From Terriglobia bacterium (GTDB lineage Bacteria > Acidobacteriota > Terriglobia > Terriglobales > Acidobacteriaceae), in contig JAIQGK010000014.1 of the NCBI GenBank assembly GCA_020072645.1, positions 1-64,000 of the forward strand: 64,000 bases of DNA, given 5' to 3'. The notes under the pieces were generated by a model that worked only from the letters and a program-made list of their open reading frames with translations, did not search any database and was not told the origin of the DNA. The translations under genes were made by a program, and so were the position numbers. Below are positions 4,009 through 15,537 of the stretch, piece after piece; the stretch's first letter is position 1; each line of letters begins with the position of its first letter.

Positions 4009-5748
4009 ATGCGCCGACTCCTGACATTTCTACTGGTATCAACTCTCATGGCTACTGCCCAGAAGACTCCTGCTCCTGCTTCCGCCAACACTTCTTTTCC
4101 CAACGCCGACGAACTCAACCAGATGGCAGCGCGGTTTGCGCCTGCGCCTCTGGATGTCGATCTCTCCAGCCTCTCCGCCGGGGACAAGAAAGCGCTGGCC
4201 AAGCTGATTGAGGCCGGACGGATCGTGAACCACCTTTTTATGCGGCAGTTCTGGAGCGGCGACCTGGCGCTTTACCAGAAGCTGCAACTGGATAAGTCCG
4301 CGCTGGGCAAGGCGCGGCTGCATTATTTCTGGATCAACAAAGGCCCATGGTCAGAGATTGACGAGCACAAGGCATTCCTGCCCGGAGTGCCGGCGAAGAA
4401 GCCGGCGGGCGCGAATTTTTATCCGGAAGACATGACCAAGGAAGAATTTGAGGCCTGGGCCAAGACGCTCTATCCGGAATCGAAAGAGCAGGCGGAAGGG
4501 TTCTTTACCGTGATTCGTCGCGGCGCGGACAAAAAACTCAAGATGGTCCCCTACAGCGAGGAATACAAAACCGATCTCGCCAAAGCGGCCGCGCTGCTGA
4601 AACAGGCCGCCGCGCTCACGGACAACGCGTCGCTCAAAAAGTTTCTTACCACGCGCGCTGCCGCCTTCAGCACCAACAATTATTTTGAAAGCGACATGGC
4701 GTGGATGGACCTGGACGCGCCCGTGGACGTGACGATTGGCCCGTATGAGACGTACAACGACGAGCTGTTTGGCTACAAAGCTGCGTTTGAGGCCTACATC
4801 AACGTGCGCGACGAGAAAGAATCCGCGCGGCTGGCGTTCCTGGGTGAGCACCTGCAGGAGATTGAAAACAATCTGCCGGAAGACCCGAAGTATCGCGTGC
4901 CCAAGCTGGGAGCGGCGGCGCCCATCCGCGTGGTAAATGAAGTTTTTGCCGCCGGCGACGGCAATCATGGCGTGCAGACCGCGGCCTACAACCTGCCCAA
5001 TGACGATAAAGTTGTCCAGCAGAAGGGCAGCAAGCGCGTGATGCTCAAAAATATTCAGGAAGCAAAATTCAAATCCACGCTGGAGCCGATATCGAAAGTG
5101 GTGCTGCAACCGGCGGCGCAGCAGGACCTGAGCTTTGAATTGTTCTTCACCCACATTGTGGCCCATGAACTCACGCACGGACTGGGCCCGCACCAGATCA
5201 AGGTCAACGGTCGCGATACGAACCCGCGCCTGGAGCTGAAAGAACTTTACAGCGCCGTGGAAGAAGCCAAGGCCGACGTGACCGGCCTCTTCGCGCTGCA
5301 ATACCTGATGACGCAAGCCGACAAAGGCGCGATGCAGGCGCCGCTTCCGCACGGCCCAGACGCGGAGCGCAAGCTCTACACCACGTATCTTGCGTCTTCA
5401 TTCCGCACGCTGCGCTTTGGCCTGCAGGATTCGCACGCCAAGGGCATGGCCGTGCAGTTCAATTATTTTCTTGATAAAGGCGCTTTCGTCGCGAACTCTG
5501 ACGGCACCTTCAGCGTGGATCTGGGCAAGATCAAAGACGCAGTCGCGGGGCTGGACCACGAGCTGCTCACGCTGGAAGCCACCGGCGATTATGCCGGCAC
5601 GAAGAAGCTGATGAGCGAAATGATGGTGCTGCGTCCTGAAGTGCAGAAAGCCCTGGAGCGGCTGAAAGGCGTTCCCACGGACATTGAGCCGGTATTTGTG
5701 ACCGCCGGTGCGAGCCCAGCCAAAGCCATGCCGAAGAAAACGAAGTGA
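4009..5748 (+). CDS. Secreted M49-like zinc metallopeptidase (dipeptidyl-peptidase III relative)
   Basis: 579 residues from ATG 4009 (MRRLLTFLLVSTLMATAQ), a clear signal peptide; the frame is open further upstream but the signal peptide fixes the start. The zinc site is visible as HELTHG (His386, Glu387, His390) followed about 30 residues later by VEEAKAD (Glu418/419), matching the HExxxH/HExxH plus EECRAE-type glutamate of M49 peptidases and their nudix-linked relatives. Those enzymes remove dipeptides from oligopeptide N-termini. Export suggests a periplasmic role in peptide or cell-wall turnover (inference). The last 15 residues are lysine-rich. A small membrane protein gene follows after 18 bases. 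Confidence 0.82.
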   Translation: MRRLLTFLLVSTLMATAQKTPAPASANTSFPNADELNQMAARFAPAPLDVDLSSLSAGDKKALAKLIEAGRIVNHLFMRQFWSGDLALYQKLQLDKSALGKARLHYFWINKGPWSEIDEHKAFLPGVPAKKPAGANFYPEDMTKEEFEAWAKTLYPESKEQAEGFFTVIRRGADKKLKMVPYSEEYKTDLAKAAALLKQAAALTDNASLKKFLTTRAAAFSTNNYFESDMAWMDLDAPVDVTIGPYETYNDELFGYKAAFEAYINVRDEKESARLAFLGEHLQEIENNLPEDPKYRVPKLGAAAPIRVVNEVFAAGDGNHGVQTAAYNLPNDDKVVQQKGSKRVMLKNIQEAKFKSTLEPISKVVLQPAAQQDLSFELFFTHIVAHELTHGLGPHQIKVNGRDTNPRLELKELYSAVEEAKADVTGLFALQYLMTQADKGAMQAPLPHGPDAERKLYTTYLASSFRTLRFGLQDSHAKGMAVQFNYFLDKGAFVANSDGTFSVDLGKIKDAVAGLDHELLTLEATGDYAGTKKLMSEMMVLRPEVQKALERLKGVPTDIEPVFVTAGASPAKAMPKKTK

Positions 5749-5766
5749 GCTGACAAGGAACGACCA

Positions 5767-5988
5767 ATGTTTGATGGAATTGGAACCCTCTACACGCTAT
5801 ACATAGTTGGCTTCGCGATTGCATTGACCGTCTCAGGCTGGATTGTGACCGTGCGTGTGCGGCGCAGGATGAAAAAATCCCTGGGACGAAAGGCCACCGA
5901 TCTGGAATTGGCGTCGCTCAACACGTGGATGCGCGTGGAGGAAGCAGAGCAGCGGGACAAGCAGAGCAGCCCAATTCATCCGCGTTGA
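5767..5988 (+). CDS. Small single-span membrane protein, unknown
   Basis: 73 residues. One N-terminal membrane segment (about residues 6-28, LYTLYIVGFAIALTVSGWIV) is followed by a strongly basic stretch (RVRRRMKKSLGRK) and a charged helix, giving a predicted cytoplasmic tail. ATG 5767 follows the peptidase stop by 18 bases and has AAGGA upstream (TGACAAGGAACGACC), so co-transcription with the peptidase is likely. No family was recognised. Confidence 0.6.
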   Translation: MFDGIGTLYTLYIVGFAIALTVSGWIVTVRVRRRMKKSLGRKATDLELASLNTWMRVEEAEQRDKQSSPIHPR

Positions 5989-6028
5989 TCGCGGTATTGG
6001 TTTTGTGCATCCTACTATTGAGGTAAAA

Positions 6029-6295
6029 ATGCGCGAACTTGTCGCCAATACGGATGACCTTATCAGTGTCCTCGATCGTGTCCTGGATAAAGGGATTGTC
6101 CTGGAATCGTGGGCACGCCTGTCCTTGCAGGAATCCGGGTTCAGTAACGCAGATTCCAGAGTCCCAGCCGGCTCAAAGATTTCCGTGGAATCGTCGGCCG
6201 TGTACGTCGGTTACGGCACACGCGGCTCGTGGCGTGAAGACGTGGAACTGGATGATCTATTTCCCTTCTGGCGGCGCGATCTCTGGAGCAAATAG
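6029..6295 (+). CDS. GvpA/GvpJ-like small protein outside a gas-vesicle cluster
   Basis: 88 residues from ATG 6029, with GAGGT eight bases upstream; an in-frame GTG at 6005 is an alternative start. Residues 8-32 contain LISVLDRVLDKGIVLESWAR and LSL, which lines up with the GvpA core ([22 protein letters not shown]), and the later RVPAGSKISVESSAVYVGYG follows the second GvpA block (RIVIASVETYLKYAEAVG). A 9-10 residue insertion separates them. The C-terminus (DDLFPFWRRDLWSK) is unlike GvpA. No other gvp gene is in the window, so a structural gas vesicle is unlikely; minor GvpJ/M/S-like or unrelated use is possible. Confidence 0.62.
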   Translation: MRELVANTDDLISVLDRVLDKGIVLESWARLSLQESGFSNADSRVPAGSKISVESSAVYVGYGTRGSWREDVELDDLFPFWRRDLWSK

Positions 6296-6525
6296 CCCCG
6301 CGCGCGCAGCCCCAGAAAAGTGGAAATCGCACTGTTGACTTTTTAGTTATGTGGCGATATTCTGCGGTTACACGGGAAAGGAGGGCGATCCAAATATATG
6401 AAGAATTCTGATTGTAGTGGTTTACGTGAGGTGGCTGAGGCTTAAGGCGTGAGTCTTTAAGTCCTGAGCGAAGTTGTGATTCGTGTAAGGCCTCCGCGCC
6501 TTCAGCCAATCCCAACAGCTTACCG

Positions 6526-6556
6526 AATAACCCCGCACATTGTGTGCGGGGTTATT
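6526..6556. terminator. Strong bidirectional hairpin between convergent genes
   Basis: A perfect 14-base stem (AATAACCCCGCACA, loop TTG, then its complement) is followed by TGCTTTT on the plus strand. It separates the plus-strand GvpA-like gene (ends 6295) from minus-strand genes starting at 6608. The 230 bases between the gene and the hairpin hold no recognised feature. Confidence 0.8.
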
Positions 6557-6607
6557 TGCTTTTACGGGGGAAAGGGGGGAGGGACACCTTTTTTGCTGCA
6601 ATCTTTT

Positions 6608-6778
6608 TCAGGACCGCCCGGCGGACATGGCTTTGGCGCGCTTTTTCACCACCACAGCCGGCTTGGGGTCTGACTTGGTTTTGCGGAACAGGTCCCGGAT
6701 GGCCAGGCCAAGCAGGAAATAAATTTCGCGATCGGTAACGATCTCGTAGAAGACCTTCATCGCACGCCAGATTCTCAT
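6608..6778 (-). CDS. Small basic protein, unknown
   Basis: 56 residues from ATG 6778 (MRIWRAMKVFYEIVTDREIY...), chosen because GGAGGCAGG lies directly upstream. The N-terminal half is amphipathic with a short hydrophobic patch (YFLLGLAIRDLF); the C-terminal half is lysine/arginine-rich (KTKSDPKPAVVVKKRAK). This could bind nucleic acid or a membrane surface, but no family was recognised. It ends 50 bases from the strong hairpin at 6526-6556. Confidence 0.5.
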   Translation of the reverse strand: MRIWRAMKVFYEIVTDREIYFLLGLAIRDLFRKTKSDPKPAVVVKKRAKAMSAGRS

Positions 6779-6904
6779 TCCTGCCTCCACGGCGAGTGGC
6801 TGAGTCTTGTCTGATGCAGAAGTTTTCACCCAGAGTTGCTGACTTTGCCGGAAAGATGCAAAAAATAGAGAGATTTTGGCGAATAAAGATCGTATAAGCC
6901 TGAC

Positions 6905-7396
6905 TTATGATGCAGTTCGCTTGTCGCGCCAGCCTATCCAGAGGGCAATTGCCAGCTGGAAAAAAATGCCGCCCATAGTATCGATCAGCACGTCCCGCAG
7001 GCTTGGGCCGCGTGAGGGAACAAAGATCTGGTGAAATTCGTCCAGGCTGCCGGCGATGGCGGCAACCAGCACCGCCAGCAAACTCCAGCGGAATGTCCAT
7101 CGCGGACGCGCCGGCAACGTGGCGCGCCACGAAAAAAATGCCAGCGCTCCCAGGAATCCATAGCTGCAAAAATGCGCTGACTTGCGGACGAGAAAGTGAA
7201 TTTGGTCGAACTGTTCGTCAAAGCGAGTGCCGAACAGCGCGTGGAAAATTTTCAAAAGCACGCTGCCTGTGTGCTCGGCGGAGAACGTGTCAGTGGAAAA
7301 AAGCGCGAGCACACAAAGCCAGATCAGCGTGGGGATCCACGCGCGCAGCTTGTGCGGCGCTGCGGTGCTTACAGGCTCTTGAACGGCGAATGACAA
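6905..7396 (-). CDS. VanZ-like family membrane protein
   Basis: 163 residues from TTG 7396 (GGCGGAAGAAGA upstream). Four hydrophobic segments and the family signatures are visible: RKSAHFCSYGFLGALAF in the middle and DEFHQIFVPSRGPSLRDVLI before the last membrane helix. VanZ proteins modestly raise teicoplanin tolerance in enterococci, but most family members, like this one outside a van cluster, have no defined role. It lies 11 bases downstream of guaB on the same strand, so co-transcription is likely. Confidence 0.85.
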   Translation of the reverse strand: MSFAVQEPVSTAAPHKLRAWIPTLIWLCVLALFSTDTFSAEHTGSVLLKIFHALFGTRFDEQFDQIHFLVRKSAHFCSYGFLGALAFFSWRATLPARPRWTFRWSLLAVLVAAIAGSLDEFHQIFVPSRGPSLRDVLIDTMGGIFFQLAIALWIGWRDKRTAS

Positions 7397-7407
7397 TCTT
7401 CTTCCGC

Positions 7408-8931
<1,524 letters not shown>

Positions 8932-9070
8932 TCAAGGAGGGACTAAGGAACTATTGTAACTGGTTTTGCCGCATCACGCAGGGTCCGCCGTAGGATTGGA
9001 ATCCGTTTCAAACTAAACAAACGAAAGTAATATTGACCAGAAAGAGGCCAGCCGCGATACTCGAAAGGTC

Positions 9071-9445
9071 ATGGAACCAAAGCAAGTTGCCACACCTGCG
9101 CCGGCTGGCGCATCTTCCGTTGTAACCGCTCCTGAAAAGCGTCATGAGAAGCGGCTGCATCTTGCCGTGCCCGTAAAAGTTTTTCCGGATGTTGCCAGTA
9201 TCGAATCGCAGAATTGCTGCACTTATGAGATTTCCGCTACCGGTGCCCGCCTCGTCGCGCCACCAGGTATTAAAAGCGTGGGACAAACCATCTGGCTGCA
9301 GCGCCAAAACCGCCGCGCTCGCTACAAAGTTGCATGGATCGGCAAGGACGGCACTTCGCAGCAAGGCCAGGTCGGCGTTGAAACCCTGGAGCCCGGCAAC
9401 GTGATCTGGGAACCCGAAATCAAAGCCCGCATCATGCGATCGTAG
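9071..9445 (+). CDS. PilZ-domain protein
   Basis: 124 residues. After a flexible 20-residue start comes EKRHEKRLHLAVPVKV, then TYEISATGARLVAP and, near the end, GQVGVETLEP. This is the PilZ layout: the RxxxR arginines and the D/NxSxxG motif (here EISATGA, with Glu in place of the usual Asp/Asn) bind cyclic di-GMP. The motif deviation makes binding uncertain. Divergent from guaB across 150 bases. In acidobacteria many single PilZ proteins exist without a known output; none is suggested by neighbours. Confidence 0.8.
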   Translation: MEPKQVATPAPAGASSVVTAPEKRHEKRLHLAVPVKVFPDVASIESQNCCTYEISATGARLVAPPGIKSVGQTIWLQRQNRRARYKVAWIGKDGTSQQGQVGVETLEPGNVIWEPEIKARIMRS

Positions 9446-9676
9446 CTTCGAGTCGCACTTTCCAACCTCTTTCTATAGATCATTTTATTTTCGACCATTT
9501 ATCTTTCAAACAGTTTTTCCGACTGTTGCTTTTCTTGATCGCCCTTTGGCAACGCCTCGCCATTGTGCAATGTTTTTCACGATCAGCTAAATATCTCATT
9601 CACCCTAAGTGAACCGCCTTAGTGCATAGGATTAAGAAAAGTTCCACAATGGGGCCATCCCCCAACGTGTGACTGA

Positions 9677-9871
9677 ATGGCCGAAAACTATCCTTATATA
9701 GTGCGCTGCAATGACTGTGATTTTGTTAGCCAGGTCTATCTGGAAGAAAACCAGGCAATGAATGAGCGCGACTTCCATTCGTTTGAAAACCTGCACTCCG
9801 TTTCAATCTGGCGTTACGCCTGGGAACAATGGACGATGGTCACGGAGTTGATGGGCGTAGAGCTGCATTAG
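9677..9871 (+). CDS. Small hypothetical protein with one CxxC
   Basis: 64 residues (MAENYPYIVRCNDCDFVSQV...). It has one CxxC (RCNDCDF) near the N-terminus, like half of a zinc ribbon, and an aromatic-rich C-terminal half (SIWRYAWEQWTMVTELMG). No ribosome binding site is visible before ATG 9677, so translation may be leaderless or the call wrong. No family recognised; the 230-base spacer upstream is AT-rich and contains no other gene. Confidence 0.45.
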   Translation: MAENYPYIVRCNDCDFVSQVYLEENQAMNERDFHSFENLHSVSIWRYAWEQWTMVTELMGVELH

Positions 9872-10262
9872 TGTCGCTTCGCTCCAAACCGCTTGAGAGT
9901 CTATTGTTCCGCAAAATTCCTCCGCACCTGCAGCAAGCGGCTCGGCGCGCAAGCCGGCCTCGCCGGGCAATCGGACTTTTGATCGCTGCCGACTCTTAAT
10001 CTAGAATCCGGACATACAGAACGAGGCAAAAAAACTGAGCATAGCGGTGCGGAAAGTTCTGAAGCGGAGAGAACGCAGCCTATGCGGAGCATGCGGCATT
10101 GATCCCTGCAAATGTAAGCGACCCCGTCGCAAAAAGAAGTATGCTACTCGTCAAAGCCCTGATCTGTCGCGGAAACGCTAGTTATCGATCTCAGAGCGGG
10201 CTGCCGGACTTCCCTCATTGCCGCTGATCTGCCACACGTGTTAGTTTTAAAGATTCAACTTT
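9872..10262. other. Spacer holding a possible micro-gene only
   Basis: About 390 bases before the carbonic anhydrase gene. Apart from the cysteine-rich frame at 10047-10181 described separately, nothing was recognised on either strand. Confidence 0.4.
10047..10181 (+). CDS. Possible 44-residue cysteine-rich basic micro-protein
   Basis: The frame from GTG 10047 to TAG 10179-10181 reads VRKVLKRRERSLCGACGIDP, then CKCKRPRRKKK and a short tail. The four cysteines are spaced C-x2-C-x5-C-x-C and flanked by arginine/lysine clusters, the look of a small zinc-binding nucleic-acid-associated peptide. There is no ATG and no clear ribosome binding site; the same frame is stopped by TAG about 45 bases upstream. 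Composition is strikingly protein-like for a spacer, but the call is speculative. Confidence 0.25.
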   Translation: MRKVLKRRERSLCGACGIDPCKCKRPRRKKKYATRQSPDLSRKR

Positions 10263-10790
10263 ATGCTCCGCTCTTACCAGGGAATCGCGCCGCGCATTCA
10301 CGATTCGTGCTATATCGATGAGTCCGCGCAGATCATTGGCGACGTTGAAATCGGTGAAAACTCCAGCGTCTGGATGAATGCCGTGATCCGCGGTGACGTG
10401 TTTGCCATCCGCATTGGCAAGAACTCCAACGTGCAGGATTGCAGCGTGCTCCATGGCATGCGCCACAAATATGGCGTCACCATGGGCGACTGGGTCACCG
10501 TGGGGCATTCGGTCACGCTGCACGGCTGCACCATCGGCGACCGCTGCCTCATCGGCATGGGCTGCGTGATCCTGAACAACGCGAAGATCGGCGAAGGCTG
10601 CATCATCGCCGCCGGAACGGTGATTCCGGAAGGGGCGATCATTGAGCCATACTCGCTGTGGATGGGCGTTCCCGGAAAGTTCAAGAAGAAGATTGACGAC
10701 GAAGAGACGCAAAAGACGATCATGATGTACGGCAGCAATTACGTCGATTACACTGCTGCGTACCTCAAACAAGCCAAGCGAGGTTTTTGA
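10263..10790 (+). CDS. Gamma-class carbonic anhydrase family protein
   Basis: 175 residues forming a left-handed beta helix, seen as hexapeptide repeats (IIGDVEIGENSSVWMNAVIR and onward). The three zinc histidines of the family appear in CSVLHG, VTVGHS and SVTLHG. Members hydrate CO2 or, as YrdA/PaaY/CaiE-like proteins, have other or unknown activity; the sequence alone does not decide. The C-terminal alpha helix (YVDYTAAYLKQAKRGF) packs on the helix in this family. Its stop is three bases before the TTG that may start the HEPN-HisRS frame, so the two are probably on one transcript. Confidence 0.9.
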   Translation: MLRSYQGIAPRIHDSCYIDESAQIIGDVEIGENSSVWMNAVIRGDVFAIRIGKNSNVQDCSVLHGMRHKYGVTMGDWVTVGHSVTLHGCTIGDRCLIGMGCVILNNAKIGEGCIIAAGTVIPEGAIIEPYSLWMGVPGKFKKKIDDEETQKTIMMYGSNYVDYTAAYLKQAKRGF

Positions 10791-10793
10791 GAG

Positions 10794-12701
10794 TTGGATT
10801 TCACTAGAGATATTGCACTGCAGGATAATGCAAATATTAGGTTGCGACCGCTGGACGAAATCGCGACTATTCCTCAAGTTCGCTTCCAAATAGCGGACGA
10901 TTTATGGATTGGAAAAATTGACAAAGAGCTCGCAGATCGAATTTTTAAGGCAACAGAGCCACCTGGCGAGTTCAAGAGCGAGAGAATCAGACAATATAGC
11001 CAGCTCTATTCGTTTGTCCGAGAACTCGGTGCCACTCAAAGCTATGTGTGGGATGAAGACAAGCGGCTTTACACTTGCATCGCGTTATCAAGAATTGTTC
11101 ATCCCACGACAGCCTCGACAGCATATTCAGCCAGATTATTTCTTACCGACGGTGAGATTCAAGGGCTCGTGCCTGGCCCTGTAAAGGGCCATTCATCAGC
11201 ATCTTATATTTCGGACGAGAATGCGCGAGATTGGCTCACGGTTGAAAATCTCGAGGAGCTGAAAGATCTTCATTCGAAAATGAATTGGTTTGCCCTGCCA
11301 CTCAGGGTTCAACGAGCGCTGTTCAAGTTCGATTACGCTATTGGGGACATGTGGCTGGACATGTCTTGGCCCACATTGTGCGCTGCACTTGATGGCTTAG
11401 TGCATATCCCGAGTGACTACGAGACTCCTGAGAGACAGTTCCTTGTAAGGGGACTTAGACTTGCGGAATTGTTAAATATTCCTGCTTCCTTTAGGGATCT
11501 CGAACAAATTCTCAATTCGAGATCGGGCGTATCAATCGGACAAGAATTGGTCAGACTTAGAGGAGAGCTACTGCGCCTTCAAAATCTTCTTAGCGAAATA
11601 GTCCGATCTGCTATTAAGCGGTCTATCCTTGACCCGGATTTCGCTGCAATTTTTAAGGATGATAATAATTTACGTTCTCGTTTATCACCTCCACGGCAGC
11701 GGCAAGGCTTGATTAAAGCAGTCCGCGGCACGCGGGACCTTCTTCCACCGGAGACCGCAATATGGAACTTTGTGGATGCGACAGCCCGCGATGTGTTTCG
11801 TCTTTACAACTTTCAAGAAATTCGCACACCTATATTCGAAGATACCCAGCTTTTTGCCAGAGGAGTGGGGGAAGAAACGGATATCGTCTCCAAAGAAATG
11901 TTCACTTGGGAGGATCGAGCCCGAGCGCAAAGTGAAAAATCGCAATCACTAACTTTACGTCCGGAAAATACAGCTGGCGTGGTCCGTGCTTACATCGAGC
12001 ACAACTTGGGCAAAATAGGCCAGCTACAGAGGCTCTACTATATTGGACCGCAATTTCGCCGCGAGCGGCCGCAAAAAGGTCGCTATCGCCAGTTCTATCA
12101 AATTGGAGCAGAACTGATCGGTCCTAGTTTTGCTGGGAGTGAATCCCCCTCTGTCGATGCTGAGATGATAGAAATGCTCAAAACGCTCCTTGACCGATTG
12201 AACATTCAGGGCTGGGTACTTGAAATCAATTCTGTTGGGTGTGCCAATGATAGACCAATTTACTTACAAGCATTGCAAGATGCCCTAAAGAATGTAGTTC
12301 AAGACATGTGTCCTGATTGCCAGCGCCGCGCACAAACCAATCCATTACGCGTACTCGATTGCAAAGTGCCAGCGGATCAGCCGATTATTGATCGGCTTCC
12401 CAAAATGGCCAAATATCTCGATGAGAATTGCGAAACTCACTTTGAGGAGGTCAAGAAACTTTTGACCGAATTGCAGATTCCTTTCATTGTCAATGACCGA
12501 CTGGTGAGGGGTTTAGACTATTACACACGTACAGCCTTCGAATTCAAACACGGTGCTTTAGGATCGCAGAATGCAATCGTTGGCGGAGGTCGTTACGATG
12601 GACTTTCTGAAGCTTTAGGGGGACCGCCAGCGCCAGGGATTGGTTTTGCCATCGGTGAGGACCGACTAGTAATGACACTAATGCCGCAGGAAGAAAAGTA
12701 A
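10794..12701 (+). CDS. hisS: HEPN-like domain fused to histidyl-tRNA synthetase catalytic core (lacks anticodon-binding domain)
   Basis: One open frame of 635 residues. Residues about 1-305 form an unknown N-terminal part ending in a helical region that resembles ApeA-like HEPN proteins (ALFKFDYAIGDMWLDMSWPT near 180-200, later ILNSRSGVSIG and IKRSILDPDFAAIF); the usual RxxxxH histidine is isoleucine here. From residue 306 (LIKAVRGTRDLLPPET, where LIKAVRG fits a normal HisRS start with TTG for ATG) comes a complete class II HisRS core: motif 2 near 416-440 (FRRERPQKGRYRQFYQIGAE), the histidine motif LVRGLDYYTRTAFEF near 570, GGGRYDGL near 595 and motif 3 GIGFAIGEDRLV near 615. The frame ends at TAA 12699-12701, exactly where the anticodon-binding domain should begin; that domain follows in the same frame. 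Base composition is visibly lower in G+C than the carbonic anhydrase gene (24 of 60 bases at 11641-11700 against 41 of 60 at 10501-10560). Whether translation starts at TTG 10794, TTG 11709 or both is unclear. Confidence 0.82.
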   Translation: MDFTRDIALQDNANIRLRPLDEIATIPQVRFQIADDLWIGKIDKELADRIFKATEPPGEFKSERIRQYSQLYSFVRELGATQSYVWDEDKRLYTCIALSRIVHPTTASTAYSARLFLTDGEIQGLVPGPVKGHSSASYISDENARDWLTVENLEELKDLHSKMNWFALPLRVQRALFKFDYAIGDMWLDMSWPTLCAALDGLVHIPSDYETPERQFLVRGLRLAELLNIPASFRDLEQILNSRSGVSIGQELVRLRGELLRLQNLLSEIVRSAIKRSILDPDFAAIFKDDNNLRSRLSPPRQRQGLIKAVRGTRDLLPPETAIWNFVDATARDVFRLYNFQEIRTPIFEDTQLFARGVGEETDIVSKEMFTWEDRARAQSEKSQSLTLRPENTAGVVRAYIEHNLGKIGQLQRLYYIGPQFRRERPQKGRYRQFYQIGAELIGPSFAGSESPSVDAEMIEMLKTLLDRLNIQGWVLEINSVGCANDRPIYLQALQDALKNVVQDMCPDCQRRAQTNPLRVLDCKVPADQPIIDRLPKMAKYLDENCETHFEEVKKLLTELQIPFIVNDRLVRGLDYYTRTAFEFKHGALGSQNAIVGGGRYDGLSEALGGPPAPGIGFAIGEDRLVMTLMPQEEK

Positions 12702-13040
12702 ATGCCACATCTAGACGTCTACATTGCTCCGTTTGGCTCGGGAATGAACTCACGGGCTGTTCTTCTGGCACGAGAAATCCGCCACAGTCTGGAATTGAGC
12801 GTAGTTGTGGGAAGCGAATCCTTTTCATTACGAAAATCGCTTGAGACTGCTAGCAAATCAGGTGCGACTTACGCATTGATCGTTGGAGAGGACGAAGTTC
12901 GCTCAGGGATATTCCCTATCAAGGACCTCATACGAGGAAAACAATACCGTGTTCCAAAAAGCGAAATAGTCAAAAAACTGAAGAACCTAATCACAGCAGC
13001 GAAGCGACGACAGCCCAAGAAATTAGCATATTGGCAATAG
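12702..13040 (+). CDS. Stand-alone anticodon-binding domain of histidyl-tRNA synthetase
   Basis: 112 residues beginning MPHLDVYIAPFGSGMNSRAV, directly after the TAA of the catalytic frame and in the same frame. It matches the class IIa anticodon-binding fold at the C-terminus of HisRS: DVYIAPFG, SLRKSLETASKSGATYALIV, GEDEV and KDLIRGKQ. Joined to the 330-residue core it would give about 442 residues, a normal HisRS. GCAGGAAG at 12686-12693 is well placed to start translation at ATG 12702, so the domain can be made separately by coupling; readthrough or a sequencing error are alternatives. It would supply tRNA-His anticodon-stem contacts to the core. Confidence 0.83.
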   Translation: MPHLDVYIAPFGSGMNSRAVLLAREIRHSLELSVVVGSESFSLRKSLETASKSGATYALIVGEDEVRSGIFPIKDLIRGKQYRVPKSEIVKKLKNLITAAKRRQPKKLAYWQ

Positions 13041-13080
13041 AAAGTGCGCAACCTTGCGAATCACATCAGCACCGCGGAAG

Positions 13081-13575
13081 TCACTTCACCTCCAGCGGAT
13101 CTCCTGTCTTGTGCTCCGTAATCTGAAATTTCAGAAACTCATGGATCGCCGCCACCGCCTCAGAGTTCGCCGATGAAATTACCACGCGGCCGCCATTCGC
13201 CGCCGGCTCATACTTGTACTTGATCTGGTCTTTCAACTTCGTCATCGTATCCACGCCCGGCGGTGTCTGGTCATGAACGAACATCGGAATATTGAAATCG
13301 CCCGACTTGAAGGCCTGGGTAATGTGGTGCAGGTGCATCTGGATTTCTTCTTTGCTCGTCTTGTCGTCGGCTGAGTTGGCCGTCACCTGGATTGCGCCGC
13401 CATCTTTCCGCAGCAGAAAGTGATGCGTGATCTTCTGCTGGTCGAAGCCCATGCCCTGGTTCCCGCGATGCTCCATTCCCTCGTGTTTGGAATGGTCCTG
13501 CGGCGGAGCGGCCGCGCTCTGTGGTTGAAGTGTCAGCGTCGATGTCAAAATCAATGATGCAAGAAAGTTTGTCAT
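13081..13575 (-). CDS. Exported histidine-rich protein, unknown function
   Basis: 164 residues with a signal peptide (MTNFLASLILTSTLTLQPQSAAA). The mature start is rich in His and Met (DHSKHEGMEHRGNQGMGF, then ITHHFLL and MHLHHITQ), suggesting metal binding. The rest is a compact alpha/beta domain ending EFLKFQITEHKTGDPLEVK. Similar acidobacterial proteins exist but no function is known to me. It lies between the split hisS and aspS on the opposite strand, interrupting the common hisS-aspS neighbourhood. Confidence 0.7.
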   Translation of the reverse strand: MTNFLASLILTSTLTLQPQSAAAPPQDHSKHEGMEHRGNQGMGFDQQKITHHFLLRKDGGAIQVTANSADDKTSKEEIQMHLHHITQAFKSGDFNIPMFVHDQTPPGVDTMTKLKDQIKYKYEPAANGGRVVISSANSEAVAAIHEFLKFQITEHKTGDPLEVK

Positions 13576-13630
13576 AAAGCCTGCGCTGGTTTAGACGGCA
13601 AATAGCCTTTAGGGTAAGCACTCTTTTTGC

Positions 13631-13660
13631 CTTTCTCCGTGTCTCCGTGCCTCAGTGGTG
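13631..13660. repeat. Dispersed 'CACGGAGACACGGAGAAAG' repeat, reverse orientation
   Basis: CTTTCTCCGTGTCTCCGTGC plus CTCAGTGGTG is the reverse complement of the element seen at 17721, 32783 and 57846. It lies in the short spacer upstream of aspS. Its copies differ at scattered positions, so this is a degenerate family rather than a recent duplication. Confidence 0.7.
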
Positions 13661-13719
13661 GGTTTGGCTTTCTCCCGATTTATAATCAAAGTTTCAGCCT
13701 GATTAAGAAAGGTACTTCT

Positions 13720-15537
13720 TTGCCGCTTGATTTTTTAGGTGATCTTCGTCGCACGCACATGTGCGGAGAGCTGCGTCCCGAGCATACGGGATCGCAGGTG
13801 ATATTGCTGGGCTGGGTGAACCGCCGGCGCGATCTGGGCAACGTGATTTTTATTGATATCCGCGACCGCAGCGGAATGACACAACTCGTCTTCGATAAGG
13901 GCGTGAACCCGGCGGTGCATGAGAAGGCCAGCGCGCTGCGCTCAGAGTATGTGATCGCGGCCATTGGAAAAGTCCGCCGCCGCGATGCCGACACCGTGAA
14001 CAAGAACATCGCAACGGGCGAAGTGGAAGTCACCGTCGACGAGCTCAAGCTGCTCAATGAATCCAAGCTGCCTCCGTTTCTGCCAAGTGAGGCTGGGCCC
14101 ATCAATGAAGAGGTGCGGCTCAAGTATCGTTATATCGACCTGCGGCGCGAAAACATGCAGGCGAATATTCAGTTGCGCCATAATGTGGCTCTGGCAATCC
14201 GCCAGGACCTGGCCGCGCGCGGATTCCTGGAAATTGAGACGCCGTTCATGACGCGCAGCACCCCGGAAGGCGCGCGCGATTATCTGGTGCCCAGCCGCGT
14301 GCATCCCGGCGAATTTTACGCGCTGCCGCAGTCGCCACAGCTCTTCAAGCAGATACTGATGATCTCCGGGTTCGACAAATATTTCCAGATTGTGCGCTGC
14401 TTCCGCGATGAAGACCTGCGCGCCGACCGCCAGCCGGAATTCACGCAGATCGACCTGGAAATGAGCTTCCCGCAGCCCGATCGCGTGTATGAAGTGGTGG
14501 AAAGCTTTTTAAAAGCGGCATTCAAAGCGGCAGGCATTGCTTTGCCGACGCCATTCGTGCGCATGAGTTATGACCAGGCTATCCGGCAATACGGGATCGA
14601 CAAGCCAGACATGCGTTTGCCCGCGATGACCGATATCCGCCCGGCCTTTACCGATGAAGACCTGGCCGATCTGCGCATTGATGGCGCATTGAACATGGTT
14701 GGCATCAGAATTCCGAATGTCGGCAAGATTTCTGATCGCGAGAAGAAAGAGCTGCGCGCACTCTCAGAAGAGCTGACCAAACGCAATAAAGACTTTGCCG
14801 GCGTGCTGTATGACTTTGTGCAGATGGAAAAGAAACGCCCGCAAGTCGCGGCAAAGATCCGCGAACTTTGCAAAGCCGGTGCCGATGATCTTGTAGTGCC
14901 CGTAGTTGGCATTGCCGCTGAAGGCAAGACGCGCTCGGCGGCCAACCAGAAAGCGCAATATACTTCCGGTGGCGAAGCCCGTCTGGAACTGGCGCGTAAA
15001 TATGCCGACAAGCACAAAGCCTTTGAGCGCACCGGCGAAGTGGCGCGTGATTTCAAGTTTCTCTGGGTCACAGACTTTCCTATGTTCGAGTATGACGACA
15101 AAGAAAATCGCTGGAACGCCGCGCATCATCCTTTTACGTCGCCGCATGAGCAGGACATGGACAAGCTGCAATCCGATCCCGGATCAGTCCGCGCTCTGGC
15201 CTATGACGTGGTGTTGAACGGCACGGAGCTGGGCTCCGGCTCAATTCGTATCCATCGTCAGGACATCCAGCGGCAGATCTTCACCGCGCTGGGCATGACC
15301 GACGATGAAGCCCGCTCGCGCTTTGGATTTTTCCTGGACGCGCTGGAATACGGCACGCCTCCGCACGGCGGCATCGCGCTTGGACTTGATCGCATTGTGA
15401 TGATCCTGGCCGGAGAGGACAGCTTGCGCGAGGTGATTCCCTTCCCTAAGACCGCCAAGGCGATTGACATGATGGTAGATGCGCCGACTCCGGTGAATGA
15501 GACTCAGTTGAGGGATTTGGGAATCAAGCTGCGCTGA
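13720..15537 (+). CDS. aspS: Aspartyl-tRNA synthetase, bacterial type
   Basis: 605 residues from TTG 13720 (AAAGG eight bases upstream; product starts LPLDFLGDLRRTHMCGELRP, the usual AspRS beginning; ATG further in at THM would cut the first strand). Order: N-terminal OB-fold anticodon domain (about 1-130, QVILLGWVNRRRDLG), class II core with FLEIETPFMTRSTPEGARDY and the aspartate/ATP motif CFRDEDLRADRQPEFTQ, the bacterial GAD insertion domain (about 300-420), and motif 3 GGIALGLDRIVMILAGEDS. It charges tRNA-Asp; whether it also charges tRNA-Asn cannot be judged here. aspS beside hisS is a conserved bacterial arrangement, which supports the hisS assignment upstream. Confidence 0.97.
   Translation: MPLDFLGDLRRTHMCGELRPEHTGSQVILLGWVNRRRDLGNVIFIDIRDRSGMTQLVFDKGVNPAVHEKASALRSEYVIAAIGKVRRRDADTVNKNIATGEVEVTVDELKLLNESKLPPFLPSEAGPINEEVRLKYRYIDLRRENMQANIQLRHNVALAIRQDLAARGFLEIETPFMTRSTPEGARDYLVPSRVHPGEFYALPQSPQLFKQILMISGFDKYFQIVRCFRDEDLRADRQPEFTQIDLEMSFPQPDRVYEVVESFLKAAFKAAGIALPTPFVRMSYDQAIRQYGIDKPDMRLPAMTDIRPAFTDEDLADLRIDGALNMVGIRIPNVGKISDREKKELRALSEELTKRNKDFAGVLYDFVQMEKKRPQVAAKIRELCKAGADDLVVPVVGIAAEGKTRSAANQKAQYTSGGEARLELARKYADKHKAFERTGEVARDFKFLWVTDFPMFEYDDKENRWNAAHHPFTSPHEQDMDKLQSDPGSVRALAYDVVLNGTELGSGSIRIHRQDIQRQIFTALGMTDDEARSRFGFFLDALEYGTPPHGGIALGLDRIVMILAGEDSLREVIPFPKTAKAIDMMVDAPTPVNETQLRDLGIKLR

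Follow-up and report, generated by a model that had tools for sequence, protein, structure and literature searches.

Bacterial histidyl-tRNA synthetase (HisRS), represented by the E. coli enzyme (1kmm) and the model TIGR00442, is a single chain joining a catalytic core to a C-terminal anticodon-binding domain (ABD). HisZ (TIGR00443), the regulatory subunit of ATP phosphoribosyltransferase, shares the HisRS-like core and has no ABD. HisRS reads mainly the G-1:C73 pair of tRNA-His and to a lesser part the anticodon, and mutations in the ABD alter tRNA selection in vivo, as described in PMC9976931. The split synthetases presented in PMC4975002 include LeuRS of Aquifex, AlaRS of Nanoarchaeota and PheRS beta of Altiarchaeales, which consist of two chains, the cut lying at a domain border or close to it. 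A search of the open-access literature found no published report of a split HisRS.

The locus described here lies in a window of 64,000 nucleotides from a Terriglobia bacterium of the family Acidobacteriaceae. Its two ORFs together are homologous over the full length to the core and ABD of single-chain HisRS, and the first ORF carries an additional N-terminal HEPN-like fusion. It resembles the split synthetases mentioned above in being encoded in two pieces and in the position of the cut, but concerns another enzyme, has adjacent pieces with a TAA followed directly by an ATG, and bears an unrelated domain on the first piece. The features are as follows:

10760-13070 (approximate), strand not assigned, foreign-looking block most likely replacing the native hisS (DNA identity breaks, fourfold sites, GC3)
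10794-11708, plus strand, HEPN-like N-terminal domain of 305 residues starting at TTG 10794 (homologues; RSxxxH motif changed)
11709-12701, plus strand, HisRS catalytic core, closed by a TAA stop at 12699-12701 (TIGR00442, conserved columns, best solved match 1kmm)
12686-12693, plus strand, GCAGGAAG, possible Shine-Dalgarno sequence (AGGA) of the ABD gene (4-base match)
12702-13040, plus strand, separate ABD gene of 112 aa with a basic C-terminal extension (PF03129, conserved columns, charge, model)

The split HisRS gene

In the assembly sequence the TAA that ends the core is followed directly on its 3' side by ATG 12702-12704 in the same frame. An open frame of 635 aa (10794-12701) is succeeded by one of 112 aa (12702-13040), with the register unbroken across the stop, and the TAA keeps core and ABD off a common chain. 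Sequence and ORFs here agree with the preliminary description, according to which the core ends at this TAA and the next ATG opens the ABD in frame. That description had also taken the whole of 10794-13040 for HisRS, although the first 305 residues are not synthetase, and had placed aspS immediately downstream, where an ORF on the opposite strand (13081-13575) in fact intervenes. A homologue of this ORF was seen at the same place in three of nine same-genus or near regions (G004, G006 and G007).

Among the 79 relatives that allow the linker between core and ABD to be delimited, 54 have one of 16 residues, and in the window it also has 16 when the TAA is counted as one residue. The junction thus aligns with the core-ABD linker of the relatives, and its length is ordinary.

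Residues 309-633 of the upstream ORF, the first chain alone, match TIGR00442 with 403.8 bits (cut-off 286.75); this match stops at profile position 316 of 406, and the downstream ORF covers positions 324-405. The latter ORF also matches the Pfam anticodon-binding domain PF03129 (41.1 bits, cut-off 21). The window keeps 138 of 140 core columns conserved at 97% or more and 10 of 12 conserved ABD columns, and the best solved match of the core is E. coli HisRS, 1kmm.

A profile search of the whole assembly (6,435,735 bases in 42 contigs, 99.14% complete) gave one match above the hisS cut-off. The two remaining matches of the hisS model are pieces of one 705-aa frame, which is presumably ThrRS. One core was returned by a search with PF13393, while PF03129 detected the ABD of this locus and, besides it, matched two longer frames (705 and 601 aa). 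No second hisS and no other HisRS-type ABD were found in this assembly, which holds no one-chain copy beside the two ORFs that jointly cover one synthetase. The earlier suggestion that this is the sole hisS is therefore borne out within the assembly, where an intact second copy with this one decaying beside it was not seen; the window HisRS is apparently essential.

The genome also has a canonical tRNA-His, found via Rfam and carrying G-1, C73 and the anticodon GTG. It was the only one among 43 of 56 tRNA matches scanned (30 as loci and 13 in fetched stretches), the 13 matches outside the scan being each 82-114 nt long. Elsewhere in this genome, a contig of 24.7 kb that perhaps belongs to a phage or plasmid carries an array of six tRNA genes (L212, 249-757, G000:C35).

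The HEPN-like N-terminal domain

The first 305 residues continue in frame into the HisRS core and have no match in Pfam or NCBIfam. Homologues with 26-38% identity occur in 12 other genomes among 398 genomes of the family; ten are full-length stand-alone genes, which measure 303-366 aa when counted from the first start codon, and the other two are a partial frame and a fragment. In a wider sample of the phylum, two of 297 genomes match this part, namely that of the window and one other, and the gene is absent from all eight same-genus relatives. The stand-alone forms start about where TTG 10794 does and end near residue 290-300; since they share both ends with the window copy, the whole HEPN-like gene appears to be present in the window. 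Five of them sit in differing neighbourhoods:

4215-5192, stand-alone HEPN-like gene, L170
3425-4336, stand-alone HEPN-like gene, L171
4969-5904, stand-alone HEPN-like gene, L172
4684-5610, stand-alone HEPN-like gene, L173
4965-5879, stand-alone HEPN-like gene, L174

In several of these five cases GC3 is below that of the adjoining genes. Judged by eye, the neighbours seem to include genes resembling guaA, a transposase, an integrase and a restriction-type protein. Viral contigs, plasmids and phages yielded no relative of this domain.

The assignment to HEPN comes from a motif and one weak match. RSxxxH is present in all 11 homologues that reach it, and one of the 10 alignment members matches HEPN_Apea (PF18739) with an E-value of 8.7e-4 and 20.2 bits, below the cut-off of 24.4; a PDB profile search with this part of the protein gave one non-significant match (E 0.84), and its single-sequence model is unusable (mean pLDDT 37.6). 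In the window the motif reads RSGVSI, with the histidine at residue 248 changed to isoleucine and the arginine and serine retained. The window copy has lost six of 26 invariant columns, compared with 0-4 in each of the other members (9 of 10 rows). On this evidence the domain is read as HEPN-like and probably devoid of nuclease activity.

The nearest described relatives would be the ApeA-like HEPN proteins (PF18739; covered in PMC3710099), with which the family shares RSxxxH and, through one member, a weak model match; the window copy differs from them in having no PF18739 match of its own, in the lost motif histidine and in its fusion to HisRS. The anticodon nucleases PrrC and RloC are among the HEPN proteins treated in PMC3710099, where a role as nucleic-acid binders is proposed for HEPN domains in which none of the conserved polar residues is left.

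Origin of the block and distribution of the split

The closest relative examined, G006, has 99.0% protein identity to the window in IMDH and 96.9% in AspRS. At the DNA level the aligned upstream flanks (5190-10753) are 86-93% identical to G006, the stretch from 13083 to the end of aspS 86-90%, and the sequence past aspS 81%, compared with 71.7% in the HisRS core; G006 and a further relative, G004, are 84% identical over hisS. Identity breaks near 10760-10790 and 13070. Fourfold sites of five neighbour genes are 72.1, 69.2, 66.7, 68.0 and 70.5% identical between the window and G006, against 33.6% (n=125) in the core and 21.4% (n=28) in the ABD, for which G006 and G004 give 58.8 and 61.9%, respectively. 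Each of the three parts of the block has a GC3 of 0.44-0.45, as against 0.77 and 0.68 for the pair of flanking genes that were measured; for the window HisRS as such it is 0.447, and at least 0.602 in hisS of 89 relatives. In G001, G005, G006, G007 and others a one-piece hisS occupies the same site, after a gamma-carbonic-anhydrase-like gene.

Composition and synonymous sites thus carry strong signs of foreign origin, and the identity breaks, the drop at fourfold sites and the shift in GC3 indicate that the block most likely replaced the native one-piece hisS at its own site. An alternative, faster evolution of the native gene in place, was judged unlikely, since relaxation of the protein alone would explain neither the saturation of fourfold sites (33.6% identity to G006 against 66.7-72.1% in the neighbours) nor a move of GC3 from about 0.7 to 0.45. 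On a 37-row protein tree the window falls outside the native clade (support of that clade 95/77), but a native placement of the core was unrejected (p-AU 0.37 and 0.34). A quick tree of 90 rows was left out of the placement, because its search had failed to reach a tree that scores 38 log-likelihood units higher. A donor was sought in 398 genomes of the family, 397 of the order and a GTDB contig scan, samples that overlap, and was not found; the best HisRS identity among the matches listed, own copy apart, was 74%. Direct repeats that would point to a mobile-element route were not found in 10200-13800.

HisRS itself is widespread in the group, with a hisS match above the cut-off in 58 of 61 genomes and a HisRS match in 372 of 398 family genomes, that of the window being included in both counts. 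A comparison of the junction in related genomes, proposed in the preliminary description, found none of 152 HisRS loci interrupted by a stop before residue 420, and 149 of them run in one piece from residue 10 or earlier to residue 415 or beyond. These loci represent 106 distinct sequences, with own copies left out and some genomes entered twice by different routes. In a survey of the best HisRS matches listed for the family (130 of 142 rows checked), the flagged stops were all at residue 426 or beyond. Among the HisRS loci compared, the split was observed in one genome only, that of the window.

Several other departures from the usual hisS were encountered in the relatives. A second, partial HisRS ABD (L220, 4077-4358, G021:C39) lies about 2 kb downstream of an intact hisS; it is a short frame without the first strand and looks like a duplication remnant. 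HisRS of L221 (474-2069, G030:C36), and also of G018 and G028, carries some 110 extra residues, inserted behind approximately residue 68 of the hisS model, within one open frame. In G060 (C18, 107167-108117) positions 2-312 of the hisS model are matched with 188 bits, below the cut-off, inside a 715-aa frame that is possibly a HisZ fusion.

Proposed translation and function of the two products

TTG 10794 lies 3 nt past the stop of the upstream gene and is preceded by a 5-base Shine-Dalgarno match, whereas no such match precedes TTG 11709, where the core begins with an in-frame start codon; ATG 12702 has a 4-base match, and the ATG of the upstream gene has none. On these grounds the core is probably made as a fusion with the HEPN-like domain, and the ABD by reinitiation at the TAA-ATG. 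The preliminary description had regarded the ABD start as having a well-spaced Shine-Dalgarno sequence: GCAGGAAG is indeed present, but carries little weight alone, as equal matches (at least 4 bases at a spacing of 4-12 nt) precede 14.3% of the 2042 ATGs on both strands of the window. Promoter-like sites in 10200-13800, of which 9 were found and 3.5 +/- 1.9 expected, were given no weight.

The ABD stands out in charge. From DVYIAP on, its net charge is +10, compared with 0.97 +/- 1.44 in 89 relatives, whereas the core is at -4, compared with -3.7 +/- 2.0. Most of the surplus is in the C-terminal extension: the tail carries +9, a value reached by none of 78 relatives, and is matched in length by two of them. 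AT-rich codon bias alone is insufficient to account for this, because the core should then have shifted too. The basic charge of the free ABD is suggestive of an adaptation to work in trans. Divergence of the ABD is also greater than that of the core would lead one to expect: its residual of -0.072 (SD 0.035) ranks second from the bottom among 90. Five relatives lie close by, at -0.064 to -0.075, so that the ABD does not stand alone in this respect, and the excess would fit either relaxed constraint or adaptation. Its structural model has a mean pLDDT of 81.9 and a long terminal helix, with the last 8 residues loose.

These features are, we think, fairly probably explained by a working two-chain HisRS that arrived in a horizontally transferred block and is produced by coupled translation. 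The first chain (635 aa) would combine a probably nuclease-dead HEPN-like domain with a complete catalytic core, read G-1:C73 of tRNA-His and perform the chemistry. The second (112 aa), begun at the ATG adjoining the core stop, would be the ABD; this direct contact of stop and start suggests that its translation is coupled by termination-reinitiation. Being unusually basic, it may dock on the core dimer, bind the anticodon stem in trans, or both. The block of 2.3 kb would have come from an unsampled relative of lower GC content and ousted the native one-piece hisS. The weak Shine-Dalgarno match, the occurrence of the split in a single genome, the excess divergence of the ABD, the unrejected native placement of the core and the unsuccessful donor search count against this explanation. 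So do the alpha-proteobacterial HisRS chimeras of PMC7590224, which were inactive without their C-terminal ABD and in which N-terminal RNA-binding additions aided charging when they bound the tRNA but were otherwise rather inhibitory. A two-chain enzyme nevertheless fits best of the three options raised earlier (two chains, readthrough or a recent nonsense mutation); that the native hisS simply acquired a new stop is disfavoured by the foreign look of the block, which, like the HEPN-like fusion, the preliminary description had overlooked.

The two-chain explanation is most at risk from the possibility that the TAA arose as a consensus error or a private nonsense mutation, in which case HEPN-like part, core and ABD would usually be made as a single chain. 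Occurrence of the split in a single genome and the frame unbroken on either side of the stop are what such an origin would leave, but it does not account for a start codon right after the stop, nor for a strongly basic, derived ABD whose charge the core does not share; the neighbour genes align with those of G006 with no broken frame noticed, and loss of hisS function would kill the cell if this is the sole copy. We regard this explanation as unlikely.

Somewhat less likely is that the core alone suffices and the ABD is vestigial or otherwise employed. An active HisRS fragment was reportedly described by Augustine and Francklyn in 1997. According to PMC4082485 the isolated catalytic domain has a near-normal KM for histidine and smaller fragments still acylate tRNA, and charging of minihelices and microhelices by HisRS is reported in PMC9976931; the divergence of the ABD beyond core expectation agrees with dispensability. 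Against this, the ABD frame is intact, most of its conserved columns are kept and it is modelled as folded, and the alpha-proteobacterial HisRS chimeras described in PMC7590224 were inactive without the C-terminal ABD.

Readthrough of the TAA yielding enough one-chain enzyme would exploit the common register of the two frames, but no favouring feature was noticed at the site, TAA is generally an efficient stop and an ATG directly follows it, which makes this very improbable. Similarly remote is an intact hisS in the unassembled part of the genome, with the window locus a dispensable extra: the assembly is in 42 contigs and short of complete, but the block occupies the very site of the one-piece hisS of the relatives, and the native copy is absent from its place after the gamma-carbonic-anhydrase-like gene. 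That the core is HisZ, which likewise lacks an ABD, is scarcely credible and was rejected, its TIGR00443 score of 133.9 bits being below the cut-off of 271.65 while the HisRS score exceeds its own, in agreement with the earlier identification as true HisRS; moreover, HisZ is not needed, since the HisG of this genome carries a HisG_C domain, the form that requires no HisZ, and no other HisRS was found in the assembly.

A more elaborate scenario, to which we give a low probability, is a domain swap, in which a mobile HEPN-like protein lost its motif histidine and turned into a cis tRNA-binding arm of HisRS. The old ABD, released in this way, would have gone on as a basic subunit of its own that binds tRNA, and native hisS copies would have been displaced as the package spread. 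Among HEPN relatives, PrrC and RloC cleave the anticodon loops of tRNAs. If the swap were true, decoding would have recruited a former nuclease of the defence type.

If the two-chain HisRS is real, an essential translation gene of this bacterium would have been replaced in place by a foreign one with a nuclease-related fusion. It would also provide a natural test of whether core and ABD, whose modularity is a long-standing idea on synthetase evolution, are independent modules able to work as separate molecules.
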